Shown here: one piece after another, positions 3,008 to 54,011 of the stretch
Layout of the letters: the number at the start of each line of letters is the position of its first letter
How positions within the stretch are numbered: the first letter of the stretch is position 1
Assembly: GCF_026241255.1 (NCBI RefSeq)
Contig: NZ_JAPHNC010000002.1
Span: 1 to 64,000, forward strand
Length of the DNA stretch: 64,000 nt
Direction of reading: 5' to 3'
From: Helicobacter sp. MIT 21-1697
Lineage (GTDB): Bacteria > Campylobacterota > Campylobacteria > Campylobacterales > Helicobacteraceae
Translations under genes and position numbers: made by a program
The notes under the pieces: model-generated
What the model saw: only the letters and a program-made list of their open reading frames with translations
The model's database searches: none
Told to the model about the DNA's origin: nothing

Positions 3008-3708
3008 TTGGAATCATCGGTGGAGCAGGAGTCGCAGCGACTAACAAACTCAACGAACTCCTAGAAATTGAGCTGACTAAAAAAGGAGCATTTAGAGATG
3101 CACATCACCCACAAATCCTTACCTTTCAAGCGACCCAAGCTCCATCAAGAAGCCTTTATTTGGAGGGCAGAGGAGAGGACTTCACACAAGATTATATTGA
3201 GGTAGGCAAAAGATTGCAAGATTTTGGCGCACAAACGCTCTGTATGTGTTGCAATACTGCGCATTATAGTTTTGATGCCATAAGCAAAGCACTGCCAAAA
3301 GTGAAGTTTCTTAACCTCATAGAATCTGCAGTGCTTAAAGTCAAGCAGAGCGGAGCAAAATCTGTGGGACTAATCGCAAGTGATGGTTGTTTAAAGGGTA
3401 GAGTGTATGAGCGGTATTTTGAAAAACTCTGCCCAAAGGTGAAAATCATCTATCCAAACGCAGAGTTTCAAAAAAGAGTTACACAAGGGATTTGCAATAT
3501 CAAAAATATTCATCGTTTTGACAACGCCAAATCCCTAGAGCGTCCTAAAAATATCTTTAAACAAGTGCGTGAGCATTTGTTATCGGGGGGGGGGGATATA
3601 ATCCTACTTGGTTGCACAGATATTCGTGTGGATTATTACAATGCGTGCGATATTTGTTCTTTAGAAGTATTGAAAGATTTGATTTTAAAAGAGGTGTGGA
3701 ATGAATGA
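2983..3708 (+). CDS. Aspartate/glutamate racemase family protein, phase-variable (in frame)
   Basis: A 241-residue member of the cofactor-independent Asp/Glu racemase family. Both catalytic-cysteine motifs are present: MCCNTAHYSF in the N-terminal half and LLGCTDIRVDY near the C-terminus. The N-terminus IIGIIGGAGVAATN is also typical. It would interconvert L and D amino acids or a related acid. It is not the cell-wall murI, which is present separately at 62865-63608. A G11 tract (3585-3595) just before the second motif is in frame; a slip would remove the catalytic cysteine. It starts inside the end of the radical SAM gene and ends inside the next gene's start, so it belongs to the same coupled operon. 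Confidence 0.8.
   Translation: MEAKRTKIIGIIGGAGVAATNKLNELLEIELTKKGAFRDAHHPQILTFQATQAPSRSLYLEGRGEDFTQDYIEVGKRLQDFGAQTLCMCCNTAHYSFDAISKALPKVKFLNLIESAVLKVKQSGAKSVGLIASDGCLKGRVYERYFEKLCPKVKIIYPNAEFQKRVTQGICNIKNIHRFDNAKSLERPKNIFKQVREHLLSGGGDIILLGCTDIRVDYYNACDICSLEVLKDLILKEVWNE
3585..3595 (+). repeat. G11 contingency tract
   Basis: Flanked GTTATC-G11-ATATAA. It precedes the GCTD catalytic motif of the racemase; in frame at 11. Confidence 0.95.
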
Positions 3709-5537: not shown

Positions 5538-6542
5538 ATGAAAGACGATTTAGTCATTATTAGAGTAGATGGCGGGATAGCAAGTCAAATTGCCTTTATC
5601 ACGCTTGGTTTAGCCTTTGAACAAAAGGGTGTAAAAGTCAAATATGATTTAAGTTGGTTTGAGGACTTTGGCACAGGATTTTTTAATCCAAGCAAGAGCT
5701 ATGATAAAGTCTATGATGTGAATTTTGATATTCCCAAAGCCTTTCCTGCCTTGTCTCTAAAAATCGCAAGCAAAGAAGAAGTAGCGCATTATAGTGAGTA
5801 TTATTTTATTGATGATAATGATGTGATTATGCGTCAAGCCCCACTTTATATCGGAGGATATTTAGGCAGAGTGTTTGATACACGTTATGCTAAGCTTTTG
5901 CAAGAGCATTTTAAACCACAAGAACTAAGTGAGCGCAACACTCCTTTTGCTACATTACTCCACGAGATAGAATCTTCTCCAGCCCCCTGTGGTATTCATA
6001 TCAGACGAGGGGACTTATCCCAGCCCCATATTGCTTATGGCAATCCTACGAGCAATGAATATTTTGCCAAAAGCATAGAGCTAATGTGCCTTTTACACTC
6101 GCAAAGTAGCTTTTATCTCTTTAGCGATGATTTAGCTTATACAAAAGAACAGATTGTCCCACTATTAAAGGGCAAAACTTATAGAATCTGTGATGTCAAT
6201 AATCCAAGTCAAGGCTATTTGGATTTATATCTTTTAAGTCAGTGTCGCAATATCATTGGTTCGCACGGAGGAATGGGAGGGTGTGCGAAGATTCTCTCTC
6301 CCTATAATCCCTTGCTGATTACGCCTCGCTATCGCAATATTTTTAAAGAAGTAGAGAATGTAATGTGTGTGAATTGGGGTGAAAGTGTGCAGGTTGCACC
6401 TCTAGTATATTCTGCCCCCCCCCTGTTATCTCCCAGCTCAAAGCAAATGCGCCGCTTAATCAAGGCTTATTTAAGGAGAAAGATAGTGCGAGTGCTTGAA
6501 AAGTTTGGGATAAAAAGGAGCGCAAATGGTGCCATTTCTTGA
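5538..6542 (+). CDS. GT11-like fucosyltransferase (HxRRGD motif), variable tail
   Basis: About 334 residues. The GT11 donor-binding motif HIRRGD appears in [11 protein letters not shown], followed by [10 protein letters not shown] and [13 protein letters not shown], the arrangement seen in alpha-1,2-fucosyltransferases. ATG 5538 is preferred because AAAGGA lies 5 bases upstream. A C9 tract at 6415-6423 near the C-terminus is in frame now. Other lengths would replace the last 40 or so residues with short tails ending at 6459 (C8) or 6499 (C10), leaving the motifs intact. The 3' end overlaps the aminotransferase start. Transfer of fucose from GDP-fucose is likely; linkage is not determined. Confidence 0.7.
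6415..6423 (+). repeat. C9 tract
   Basis: Runs as C on the coding strand (encoding APPL), unlike most tracts here, which are G on the coding strand. Close to the 3' end of the fucosyltransferase-like gene; in frame. Confidence 0.9.
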
Positions 6543-7638: not shown

Positions 7639-8530
7639 ATGCAATACAAAATCGTGGAACTTACCTGTGGCTTAGGTAATCAGATGTTTCAATATGCTTT
7701 TGCTAAGAGCTTGGAGCATCATTTGCAAATGCCCATTTTGCTTGATAAAACTTGGTTTGAAGTAGAGGGCAAAAAGCATTCTATCCCCTTTAGTTTGGGG
7801 CTTTTTAACATTGATTTACCCTATGCGACACAGGAGCAAATTAGCGCACTCAAGGAAAAATTCAACTCTTTTGAATCTAAGCCAAAGATTATGAGAAGTA
7901 TTTTAAAGAGAGTAGGGTATCCTAGAGTCGCTAGAAGCTTTGCTTTTGAATACAAAGCACAATATTTAAAGCCAAATCCTTTTGCATATTTTGTTGGATT
8001 CTTCCAAAATCCACTTTATTTTAAAGAGATTGCTTCGCATATAAAGGAAGTGTTATGCCCCCCCCCCCATTAAAAGCGAAATAAATAAGCATAAATTAGA
8101 GCGCATTTGCCAAGCTCAAAACAGCGTTTTTATCCACATCAGACGCGGTGATTATTGCACACATTCGTGGCAGGTGGATTTAAGCTATTATAAAAAAGCA
8201 GTGGCTACCATTGCAAGCAAGATAAATAATCCTCAATTTTTCCTCTTTTGTGCAGATAGAGAGTTTGCACGAAATCTTGATTTGGGCTATCCCTTTGTGG
8301 ATATGACGACTGAAAATATTACCGCAGATAATCATTATGAGGACTTAACGCTTATGGCGCATTGCCAACACGGCATTGTGGCAAACAGCACTTATTCGTG
8401 GTGGGCAGCTTATCTCATCAGTAATCCCCAAAAAATCATCATCGCCCCCACCCCTTGGCTACTTGGTAACGATGAGATAATTTGTGCAGATTGGATTAAA
8501 ATAGAAGCGGCAAGAGAGGTGGCATTATGA
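7639..8530 (+). CDS. Alpha-1,2-fucosyltransferase (GT11, FutC-like), split by C11 tract (OFF)
   Basis: The N-terminal part has the GT11 hallmark CGLGNQMFQYAFAKSL. After the C11 tract (8058-8068) the protein continues in another frame with IHIRRGDY and the conserved VANSTYSWWAAYL. At C11 translation ends at 8073, before the donor-binding motif, so the gene is OFF; C10 (or C13) would give about 296 residues. H. pylori futC also has a poly-C run and makes the Lewis-type H epitope, so a similar host-mimicry role is plausible. AAGGAG places the start at ATG 7639. The stop overlaps the next start as ATGA. Confidence 0.85.
8058..8068 (+). repeat. C11 contingency tract
   Basis: C on the coding strand, upstream of HIRRGDY in the FutC-like gene. 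On the G strand the flanks read TTTAAT-G11-CATAA. Out of frame at 11, in frame at 10 or 13. Confidence 0.95.
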
Positions 8531-10833: not shown

Positions 10834-11860
<1,027 letters not shown>

Positions 11861-50676: not shown

Positions 50677-51695
50677 TATGCCGCCTTTCGCAGATTATGA
50701 TACTGAGTATAGAAATATTTTAGTTCTGCCCCCCCCCCCATTAATTTTTTTGCTTTTTGTGTAAAAATAGAGGAAAGATTAAGCATTTTTGAGTACGCTC
50801 TTGTGTGTAATGGTTTACGAATAGATTGCTCAAAGGCTTTGATGCGCTCTAGTGCAAGATGAGATTCTATAATTTTATGGGGATAAGTAATTGGGAATTT
50901 TATATTAATATGGGTAGGATTATATATATTTCCTTCTTTTCCACAATGTATCCCGCTCCCATCAAAGCCAATTTGTTTGATGTATGATATGTTTGGACAA
51001 AGCGTAAGGGCAGAATGTTTGTAGCTGATAAGGTAGTTAAAAATTGCCCAAGTTTTGATTTTTCCCTGATGATTGGCAATGAGATGCTCAAAGTAACGAG
51101 CCACACCATCAAGATTAATATAGTCAATATCTTTTTTATCAAAGTTCTTTAATGCCCAAGATGTATCGCGTTTAAAGTGTATCCACCTATCATTCCAGCT
51201 TGCCCAACCCCAACAATGAGGAATTCGCCAAAAATAACAATCTCCCAAGCCACTCACTTCTATTGGATAGCTCCACCCAGATATGCTCCACACTTTGTGT
51301 TTATTTTTGTATTGTTCCAAGCTTGCGTTCATATAGTCCAAAAATACAGGCGAGGTAACAATATCATCTTCAAGAATGATTGCTCTACCGAACTGATGCA
51401 TAATTTCGCTTGTTCCATTAATGATAGAGTCTGCCAATCCAAGATTGTGTTTAGCGTGTTTTATCGTAATGGAGTTAAAGAATTTTTGTGTTGTATTAAG
51501 AGATTTGAGTGACTGAATATAATCTTGCACTTTTGATACGGCTTGTTTTGATTCTATTGTAGCATTTTCTTTGATGCCATCAGCATAAATAAAGAGATGG
51601 CTTTTTTTGCTTAAAGGATTTGCAATTAAGCTTTTAATTGTTTGTTGAAGATGAATTGGGCGATTGTAGGCAAAAAGAACAATAGGCGCTAGCAT
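50676..51695 (-). CDS. Glycosyltransferase (GT2-like, LEDD type) with tract near C-terminus (in frame)
   Basis: About 339 residues. APIVLFAYNRPIHLQ, AIILEDDIVTSPVFLDY and HCWGWASWNDRW match its downstream neighbour. ATG 51695 is chosen because it overlaps the FkbM stop (ATGCTAG); a TTG-start extension to 51737 is less likely. The G11 tract (50729-50739) is 17 codons from the end. At 11 the protein ends AELKYFYTQYHNLRKAA and its stop overlaps the next start. At 10 it would end MGGGQN, and at 12 MGGGGRTKIFLYSVS, both before the next start. Confidence 0.75.
   Translation of the reverse strand: MLAPIVLFAYNRPIHLQQTIKSLIANPLSKKSHLFIYADGIKENATIESKQAVSKVQDYIQSLKSLNTTQKFFNSITIKHAKHNLGLADSIINGTSEIMHQFGRAIILEDDIVTSPVFLDYMNASLEQYKNKHKVWSISGWSYPIEVSGLGDCYFWRIPHCWGWASWNDRWIHFKRDTSWALKNFDKKDIDYINLDGVARYFEHLIANHQGKIKTWAIFNYLISYKHSALTLCPNISYIKQIGFDGSGIHCGKEGNIYNPTHINIKFPITYPHKIIESHLALERIKAFEQSIRKPLHTRAYSKMLNLSSIFTQKAKKLMGGGAELKYFYTQYHNLRKAA
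50729..50739 (-). repeat. C11 (G11 on coding strand) contingency tract
   Basis: G-strand flanks TTAAT-G11-CAGAAC. Near the gene end; sets the tail sequence and the position of the stop relative to the next start. Confidence 0.95.
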
Positions 51696-52412
51696 TGTTG
51701 ATTCTTGAAAATTAGGGTATTTAATGTTTTGGCACAAAGTTTATAGCCTTGTGTAGCAAGAAAGGTATATATTTTATTATTATAGATATTTTCAAAATCA
51801 CTCTCCCAGGATTCAACAAGTATAATTCCGGGGCGATATTTGAGCCAATTGTTTGACTGTAAAACTTCTAAATCAAGTCCTTCAACATCAATATTTAAAA
51901 AATCAATTCTATGTTGGTTAGGGAGGAGATATTCATCAAGAATTTGTTCAAGTTTTTTTACGGGCATAGGAATTTTTTCTACCAAATAGAAGTGTGGATG
52001 ATTTTTATATTTGTTTTCTAAAATAGGGGTAAAGCCATTGAGTGCTGGCTCATTAAAACTATAATATATCATATCCCCCCCCCCCATTCAAAGCTATACC
52101 ACATTCAATATTTATGTCCCGCGGGCGAAAGCGACTAAAAAGTTTCATAGAATTTGGCATAGCATCAATATTGATGCCTTTCCAACCTTTTTGGTAGAAA
52201 AGATAAGTATTTGAAAATCTGAAAGGATGATGTGCTCCCACATCAACATAGAAGCCATATTGTATATTATTTAGCATTTCTTGGAGGATTAAATCTTCAC
52301 CTTGTTGAGCGTAAGATTTATTTTGAAAACGAGTAATATAAAGATTTTTATAGTAGAGAAGTAAATACTGAGCTTTATGTGGTAGAATTTTCTTAAGAAG
52401 ATATTTGAGCAT
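51689..52412 (-). CDS. FkbM-family methyltransferase, split by C11 tract (OFF)
   Basis: The N-terminal ORF has SYAQQGEDLIL and FYVDVGAHHPFRFSNTY (SAM site). The C-terminal ORF has IDFLNIDVEGLDLEVL and GIILVESW. The C11 tract at 52075-52085 separates them; C10 (or C13) restores about 240 residues. The start codon (52412) and its AGGA Shine-Dalgarno lie in the right arm of a 10-bp inverted repeat. A short upstream ORF carrying its own G11 tract precedes it. Two tracts could therefore control this one gene. Confidence 0.78.
52075..52085 (-). repeat. C11 (G11 on coding strand) contingency tract
   Basis: G-strand flanks TTGAAT-G11-ATATGA, inside the FkbM gene. Out of frame at 11, in frame at 10. 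Confidence 0.95.
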
Positions 52413-52444
52413 TTTGTCCTATCTTTTTAAGAAAAGGACAAAAT
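52411..52444 (-). promoter_or_regulatory. Inverted repeat burying Shine-Dalgarno and start of the FkbM gene
   Basis: On the minus strand ATTTTGTCCT (52444-52435) and AGGACAAAAT (52420-52411) are perfect complements with a 14-base spacer that can itself pair partly. The right arm contains AGGA 4 bases before ATG 52412 and the first two bases of that ATG. If folded in mRNA it should block initiation. Confidence 0.65.
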
Positions 52445-52464
52445 CAAACGTCCAAAATTTTAGT

Positions 52465-52527
52465 TTATGCCCCCCCCCCCATTCTATAGTTAGAAGCTAT
52501 AAGAGAACAGTATATTGTGAAAATCAT
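52465..52527 (-). CDS. Short upstream ORF (leader peptide or gene remnant) with G11 tract
   Basis: ATG 52527, with AAGGA about 10 bases upstream, encodes MIFTIYCSLIASNYR followed by MGGGA and TAA at the recorded G11. At G12 it would stop three codons after the run. At G10 or G13 it would continue to 35 or 36 residues, ending at TAG 52421-52419, 6 bases before the FkbM ATG and overlapping its AGGA. It may be a translational-coupling leader, or the decayed start of a lost glycosyltransferase gene. No homologue is recognised. Confidence 0.45.
   Translation of the reverse strand: MIFTIYCSLIASNYRMGGGA
52470..52480 (-). repeat. C11 (G11 on transcribed sense) tract in leader region
   Basis: G-strand flanks TAGAAT-G11-CATAAA. 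The only tract in the window outside a full-size gene; it lies 58 bases upstream of the FkbM start, inside the short upstream ORF. Confidence 0.95.
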
Positions 52528-52565
52528 TGCTACACCATCCTTATAAAATATCGCCAAATCTATAC

Positions 52566-52571
52566 ATTATA
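52566..52571 (-). promoter_or_regulatory. TATAAT -10-like hexamer for the second glycan operon
   Basis: ATTATA on the plus strand reads TATAAT on the minus strand. Transcription would start near 52559, about 33 bases before the short upstream ORF. It is the only good -10 match I see between the MATE gene and the glycan genes on this strand. Confidence 0.5.
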
Positions 52572-52655: not shown

Positions 52656-54011
52656 TTACAATTGTGCGATGTATTTTTTCCATAAACCTTTATAAAAAAC
52701 AAAGCCAAAGATTCCTGCGCGTAAATATGTTTCGCAGCAAATGATAGCAAAAATATATCCCACAGCAATGTCATAATGCACACACAGCCACATCGGGAGG
52801 ATTCTTAGAATCCAAATGCTCCCTGTGTTAATCCATAATGAAAGCTTTGTCGCACCACTTCCTCGCAATGCCCCATCAAGCACGAAAATACAAATAAGAG
52901 GCACTTGAGAAAGCCCTACTGCAAGGAGATAATCAAAAGAATACTCAATTACTGCCACTTCTGTGCTAAAAATTGCGGAGAGTTCTTTGCCTAGCACGCA
53001 TAGCCCTATGCCTAATATGCCCATAACCACTGATGAGATAAGCAAAATTGTTTTGATAAAAGATTCTGCTAAGTCTAATCGCCTTGCACCGAGCATTTGT
53101 CCAACTAATGCCATTGCTGCCACTTGGAATCCAAAGCCGGGCATAAAAATGAAGCTCTCCACCCTTGAGCCAATTTGAAATCCTGCAATGACTTCCAAAC
53201 CATAATCAGTCATAAATTTTGTAATCAGCACAAGGGAGAAAATTGTCAAACCTCGCTCAATACCAGAGGGAATACCAATGCACAACCCATTGTAAAGAAT
53301 CTGCCATTTAAAGGTGGGTAAAAATGTCAAATGATGGTGTAGCCCACAGAGAATTCCAAGTAAAATCAAACATTCAAAATAAGTGATGATGACATTTGCT
53401 ATGCCAGCCCCCATAATCCCAAATGGTGGGATACCAAGCCCTTGCACCCCAAAAATAAGCATAAAATTAAGGATAATATTTAAGCTTGTGGCGATGATTT
53501 TTACAAAAAAAACGCTTTTTGTATCCCCAATGGCTGAAAGAGCAGAGATAAATATTGTCTTAAGAAAAAGTGCGGGAATGCCATAAAAAATCCAATTCAA
53601 ATACAACATACCTAGCTCTTTAGTTTCTCCACCTACGCCCATCCAGTTAAAATAAAACTCATTACTCATATATGCAAGAGCATAAATAGGAATAGAGCAG
53701 AGCCCAGCCCCGATACTCATTGTGCTTAGAATCTGCCCTGTTTTAAGGTTATTTCGCTCCCCAAATGCGCGTGAGACTTGCGCATTTGTACCCACATAAA
53801 AAATAGTTGTGAGCGCAAAAAGAAACATCCAGCAGCTCATACCAAGCCCGAGTGCCACGATATTATGCTTTGTAACTTCAGAATCTGGCGAAATATGGGC
53901 AATAAAATACATTCCTATGGCGATATTAGCAATATCAAGTAAAGAGTTTCCTCCAGAGGGCAAAGCAATACTTAGAATCTTGTGGAGACGTTGTTTGAAG
54001 TTATATATCAT
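52656..54011 (-). CDS. MATE-family multidrug exporter
   Basis: 451 residues with about twelve membrane helices and the MATE internal repeat (ALGLGMSCWMFLFALTTIFYVG in the first half; MPGFGFQVAAMALVGQMLGA in the second). NorM-like drug or cation antiporter; substrate not determinable. No tract. It ends 85 bases before the promoter of the second glycan operon on the same strand. Confidence 0.87.
   Translation of the reverse strand: MIYNFKQRLHKILSIALPSGGNSLLDIANIAIGMYFIAHISPDSEVTKHNIVALGLGMSCWMFLFALTTIFYVGTNAQVSRAFGERNNLKTGQILSTMSIGAGLCSIPIYALAYMSNEFYFNWMGVGGETKELGMLYLNWIFYGIPALFLKTIFISALSAIGDTKSVFFVKIIATSLNIILNFMLIFGVQGLGIPPFGIMGAGIANVIITYFECLILLGILCGLHHHLTFLPTFKWQILYNGLCIGIPSGIERGLTIFSLVLITKFMTDYGLEVIAGFQIGSRVESFIFMPGFGFQVAAMALVGQMLGARRLDLAESFIKTILLISSVVMGILGIGLCVLGKELSAIFSTEVAVIEYSFDYLLAVGLSQVPLICIFVLDGALRGSGATKLSLWINTGSIWILRILPMWLCVHYDIAVGYIFAIICCETYLRAGIFGFVFYKGLWKKYIAQL

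Follow-up and report, generated by a model that had tools for sequence, protein, structure and literature searches.

At the gene borders sampled in some twelve species of Helicobacter and other genera, G tracts that lie just beyond the body of one gene are mostly followed by two reading frames that stop almost at once and a third that stays open as far as the start of the next gene, a layout that suggests a random choice of whether that next gene is translated. The window analysed here, a stretch of 64,000 nucleotides from Helicobacter sp. MIT 21-1697 (contig NZ_JAPHNC010000002.1), holds what is probably a degenerate member of this class of tract-to-gene borders, placed ahead of a gene for an FkbM-family methyltransferase. 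The account that we favour, which we rate somewhat above an even chance, is phase-variable translational coupling, in which the FkbM leader is the end of a DUF115-type gene that keeps a gate recurrent between glycan genes. The general border class is a more interesting claim than the single locus in the window.

The leader is read on the minus strand (Table 1). The original prediction described it as a possible leader-peptide switch, and every element that it named, from the TATAAT, the ATG of the short ORF and the G11 tract to the two arms, the AGGA, the FkbM ATG and the TAG, lies to the base where it was placed. The account of the reading frames was equally accurate: counted from the A of the FkbM start, the short ORF stops at -55 after 20 codons at G11 and at -50 after 22 codons at G12, and at G10 and G13 it runs for 35 and 36 codons, respectively, to a stop at -9 that lies on the first bases of the AGGA. 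Across tract lengths of 8-15 Gs the stop falls at -55 or -50 in all but G10 and G13. The early stops are due to the 3' flank of the tract, GCATAAACTAA; GGGGGGGGCATAA, the type of flank found behind other tracts, occurs 14 times in this genome and 0 times in the reversed control. In class and length (G11) the tract fits slipped-strand phase variation, as judged in one assembly of the species, and it would presumably slip. The start of the short ORF is weak, and its translation is uncertain because the nearest AAGGA lies ten bases upstream of the ATG and the sole promoter evidence is one TATAAT, 85 nt upstream of the tract, that the promoter scan did not list.

Table 1. Features of the FkbM leader, its neighbours and related tracts, in window coordinates.
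Feature	Position	Strand	Remarks
TATAAT, possible -10 element	52566-52571	-	from sequence; no good -35; absent from promoter scan output
Short ORF at G11, 20 codons, MIFTIYCSLIASNYRMGGGA	52465-52527	-	ATG at 52527; stop TAA 52467-52465
G11 tract in leader	52470-52480	-	
3' flank of leader tract, CATAAACTAA	52460-52469	-	two frames stopped (TAA 52467-52465, 52462-52460), third open (HKL)
Open tail HKLKFWTFDFVLFLKR, read at G10/G13	52419-52469	-	ends TAG 52421-52419; relic of DUF115b C-terminal tail
Left arm of 10-bp perfect inverted repeat	52435-52444	-	
Right arm of inverted repeat	52411-52420	-	contains AGGA (52420-52417) and AT of FkbM start codon
Alternative weak hairpin GGAC/GTCC, then TTTTCTT	52436-52453	-	rivals start hairpin for left arm
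MATE-family transporter gene	52656-54011	-	conserved left border of locus; in 11/11 genus genomes searched
FkbM-family methyltransferase gene, N-terminal part	52059-52412	-	ATG at 52412; out of frame past internal tract
Second G11, within FkbM	52075-52085	-	full frame needs G10 or G13
FkbM C-terminal part, other frame	51689-52087	-	
G11 near end of next glycosyltransferase gene	50729-50739	-	open tail ends TAATG on start of following gene (50676); same layout
G11 at another border of same kind	3585-3595	+	frames stop at -102, +1 and +5 of gene at 3701

The history of the leader is apparent from its relatives. The window species belongs to the H. cinaedi/H. hepaticus group, and its MATE protein shares 93% identity with its counterpart in a relative (G008) which we take to be H. 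hepaticus. The locus is bounded by feoB and the MATE gene, and in H. cinaedi, as in a genome that matches H. magdeburgensis, the island next to MATE consists of an SDR gene, two DUF115-type genes and FkbM, in this order; H. marmotae has the order SDR-DUF115a-DUF115b-FkbM a few kilobases further along, and a further relative (G003) has the same block at another place. Of the remaining genomes, G002 has MATE and SDR without FkbM, G006 has SDR-FkbM with neither DUF115 genes nor a tract before FkbM, and G008 is without the island. In species that possess DUF115b, the gene ends in a G tract, from which the FkbM start is 61-73 nt away, or 94 nt in Helicobacter avicola. In the window the order is MATE, 243 nt, FkbM, with SDR, DUF115a and DUF115b missing, and a search for DUF115b in the rest of this genome, run without a positive control, returned no match. 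The 57-nt spacer between tract and FkbM aligns with the DUF115b-FkbM spacers of H. cinaedi (z 3.7), H. magdeburgensis (z 3.8), H. marmotae (z 3.2) and G003 (z 2.6), all against shuffles, and the open frame, MGGGHKLKFWTFDFVLF, aligns with the DUF115b tail of the relatives, MGGGAKVRILSFYFLLF, at 53% identity over 17 residues. Because of the synteny loss, the spacer scores and this match, the open frame is taken as the tail of DUF115b, and the leader, judged by its sequence, is what survives of the 3' end of a DUF115-type (MptE-like) gene since lost by deletion, namely the tract and the 57-nt spacer. An origin as a leader peptide is therefore given up, the open frame being the tail of a deleted upstream gene, and the decayed gene start that had been named as the main alternative was right as to decay and wrong as to the start: what decayed is a gene end. 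The part of the short ORF that precedes the tract (15 codons) gave no convincing relative in DNA and protein searches, and the deletion joint probably lies within these codons. A 51-nt match to a glycosyltransferase tract of G002, which shares GCTTCTANCTATA and the flank, was considered as the source of the ORF and rejected, since its protein loop was not found in this genome. This glycosyltransferase (L010, 1060-2512), of family-2 type, has a G tract within a long insert that separates VGIEYV from EYIHFVDSDD, and the flank of its tract resembles that of the FkbM leader tract.

The perfect 10-bp inverted repeat that holds the AGGA and the AT of the FkbM start was likewise correctly described, its arms being exactly complementary around a 14-nt loop. 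Among dinucleotide shuffles of the 76-nt leader, 0.87% contain such a repeat. In 675 kb of this genome, with 408 gene starts, one start has a stem of at least 10 bp over the Shine-Dalgarno or start, and the local fold at the leader reaches -17.4 kcal/mol (z -4.5). The stem was chosen post hoc, and any whole genome would be expected to hold a few genes with one like it; by itself it is suggestive, not conclusive. Conservation in related strains had been proposed as a check both on the stem and on the frame geometry. Base-for-base conservation of the stem is rejected, the Shine-Dalgarno of the relatives pairing with other partner sequences, and the stem is weakened accordingly, whereas the frame and its stop on the next start do recur in relatives and are strengthened. 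The FkbM Shine-Dalgarno is predicted to be mostly paired in most relatives, with downstream codons in H. cinaedi, with an upstream TTCCTTC in G003 and with TGCCC in H. marmotae. The left arm of the stem is also claimed by the alternative hairpin, and one could suppose an attenuator in which the GGAC/GTCC hairpin and its T run terminate transcription unless the short ORF is translated through. We regard this as highly improbable: a terminator-like site is present, where shuffles yield a mean of 0.2, and its hairpin contends with the start hairpin for one arm, but its stem has just 5 pairs, its T run is interrupted, the competing 10-bp stem is far stronger and the arrangement has no general occurrence in relatives. 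Nor does the locus resemble a leader-peptide attenuator, the open frame being a gene-end relic and the second structure weak.

In the assembly this copy of FkbM is off irrespective of its leader, because it is out of frame at the second G11 (52085-52075), and since its own internal tract breaks it the copy may be inert. A possible though doubtful account extends this to the leader as a whole, which would be an inert relic: a deletion left a gene end before FkbM, transcripts of FkbM would come from read-through or a promoter close by, its translation would start irrespective of the tract, and the gate, inactive here, may function in the relatives. The lost body of the upstream gene, the internal G11 and a stem that is not conserved base for base agree with such a relic, but it leaves unexplained a tail frame that is open for 16 codons past the tract, two early stops and a start stem that are intact, and a local fold with so extreme a z score. 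Phase-variable coupling, the reading that we prefer, has the same window to contend with: here the upstream gene is gone, the short-ORF start is weak and FkbM is out of frame.

The original prediction holds in part. Its core idea, that the arrival of ribosomes at the FkbM start would depend on tract length, is supported by comparison: orthologous and unrelated borders alike have one frame that stops on the next start and early stops in the others. The geometry is documented by sequence, frames, synteny, recurrence, composition and predicted pairing. A border was defined as a tract with the start of another gene no more than 200 nt downstream, and 45 borders from about 10 species, including H. 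avicola, were combined with 8 from two genomes of other genera (n = 53), the regions being selected as tract-rich except for 675 kb of this genome and 400 kb of G003, which were taken as runs. At 46 of the 53 borders one frame stays open past the tract and stops between -15 and +25 relative to the next start, a result that shuffled spacers give at 18.0 borders, and the stops at coupled borders lie mostly at +1, -2, -3, +4 or +8. Of the first set, 40 borders are coupled; in 23 of them the upstream frame is in phase with the open path at the tract length of the assembly, and in 17 it would be after a change of one G in either direction. Both of the other frames stop within 20 nt past the tract at 65% of borders, as compared with 25% of random points in the same genes, and these early stops come from flanks such as GCATAAACTAA, GATAGAGTAA and GTAAATAG. 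In well-defined enzyme families the tract comes after a complete domain, and the FdtA-FdtA border of this genome (L035), with its tract behind a complete FdtA domain, is an intact, in-phase example. Several of the tails are hydrophobic, and among orthologues they differ in sequence yet end at the next start. It counts against coupling that stops on or near the next start are also common in control gene pairs, as in tightly packed operons.

Composition and predicted folding set these borders apart as well. The G content of the spacers is 0.102, versus 0.181 upstream in the same gene (p 2e-8) and 0.169 downstream; that such depletion is a trait of any tract is partly true, as tracts inside genes show a weaker one (0.147 versus 0.183). 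Predicted pairing of the next gene's Shine-Dalgarno has a median of 0.80, versus 0.52 for adjacent genes without a tract (p 1e-7). Composition-preserving shuffles of the spacer give 0.71 versus 0.75 observed (p 0.01), so that most of the extra pairing is due to spacer composition and a small surplus remains, a result that tells against coupling and weakens the strong claim of selected hairpins at every border. A few borders (L215, L072) have little predicted pairing. Six borders from two further genera have a median pairing of 0.98 versus 0.47 (p 0.002) and a spacer G content of 0.083 versus 0.165.

How phase-variable translational coupling would operate can be outlined as follows. The gate would consist of a G tract just beyond the body of gene i, a flank that ends two of the three frames immediately, and a third frame that forms a G-poor open tail reaching the Shine-Dalgarno or start of gene i+1, where the Shine-Dalgarno would tend to be hidden by folding. 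With slippage into the open phase, translation of gene i would run on along the tail, open the structure and end at the next start, thereby favouring initiation there; in the other two phases ribosomes would be released some 50-130 nt short of it, leaving the next gene poorly translated. The existence of such coupling, and the size of its effect on expression, we infer. At the window locus the same scheme would apply provided that the short ORF, a remnant of 20-36 codons, is still translated, and the TAG reached at G10 or G13 places an upstream stop next to the downstream Shine-Dalgarno and start, as coupling calls for.

Tracts of this kind have been read in another way. In the part of the H. 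canadensis report drawn on here, eight genes with poly-G tracts of at least 10 at their ends, mostly in a glycan region, are assigned C-terminal phase variation (Snyder et al., 2010; PMC2823697), and five of the eight genes listed combine a single frame of 16-50 residues with two of 0-5 (PMC2823697). The likeness to the present borders lies in the poly-G at gene ends and in the two short frames with one long one. The differences are that, in that part of the text, the switching is held to be aimed at the tail of protein i, with discussion of one gene fusion, that coupling to the start of the following gene, spacers poor in G and occlusion of that start go unmentioned there (PMC2823697), and that in the window protein i is gone. 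Were the tail varied purely for its own sake, the overlap with the next gene would be ordinary operon packing. This is the known reading of such H. canadensis tracts, and similar stop positions in control gene pairs and the hydrophobic character of several tails suit it; we think it unlikely nonetheless, because orthologue tails diverge while ending at the next start, the spacers avoid G, predicted pairing of the next Shine-Dalgarno exceeds that of controls, and the window leader has no upstream protein to vary. C-terminal variation of this kind fits the relatives but not the window, which has lost the upstream coding sequence.

A second precedent comes from H. pylori: the tlpB-hp0102 operon, one of whose genes is a glycan gene, has a variable G repeat in its leader on which RepG acts (PMC8295292). 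The window shares a leader G repeat with that system, which differs in working by small-RNA pairing with a graded effect and without reading-frame geometry (PMC8295292). A comparable small RNA, with a C/U-rich loop that pairs with the leader G tract and an effect tuned by tract length, would suit a tract placed before a glycan gene in both cases; two early stops and one open frame ending at the start are not predicted by it, an Rfam scan of the window alone gave no RepG family above threshold, and we consider it improbable. Classical translational phase variation uses the same type of tract, and FkbM carries such an internal tract, but the leader tract lies outside the gene that it putatively controls. 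Transcriptional phase variation would call for a tract inside the promoter whose length alters the spacing, and the leader tract lies 85 nt downstream of the TATAAT. Translational coupling of overlapping genes has the same stop-on-start geometry, and an occluded downstream start may be a further likeness, as suggested by predicted pairing that is mostly due to composition, the difference being that access to the coupled path would here hinge on a slipping tract. A reading-frame survey handles phase variation and translational coupling as separate classes (PMC3711429). No account of tract-gated coupling was found in the open-access literature consulted.

Whether end tracts form widespread two-gene phase switches in Helicobacter, gating gene i+1 and not altering protein i, is in our estimate evenly balanced. 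Tracts at gene ends have so far been without a clear purpose, because little of the protein is left to encode after them. Should they control the gene that follows, what is called C-terminal phase variation would be recast as phase variation of the next gene, many genes listed as constant would be phase variable, and predictions of surface-sugar state would change. The combination of a G-poor spacer with stops in two frames would then be a searchable signature in other genomes.

Several further observations concern the tracts themselves. In this genome (C1 and C2, the window included) G-on-minus tracts mostly follow AAT, AAC or ACA and G-on-plus tracts follow ATC, TTC or CTC, and in another genome (G103) C precedes nearly all G-on-minus tracts of two arcs (0-450 kb and 1.64-2.08 Mb) and none of those between; this dependence of the preceding bases on strand and arc is possibly a replication-strand effect. 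Two plus-strand genes of the window have poly-C in the coding strand (8058-8068 and 6415-6423), against the poly-G rule, and these tracts have flanks typical of minus-strand tracts. Identical sequence follows the G tracts of two large genes of this genome (C1:5858 and C1:150709), which are likely paralogues that switch independently. At about 11183-11286 of the window, YIYIYIYI in two overlapping ORFs in different frames points to a TA dinucleotide repeat, which may be another phase-variable site.
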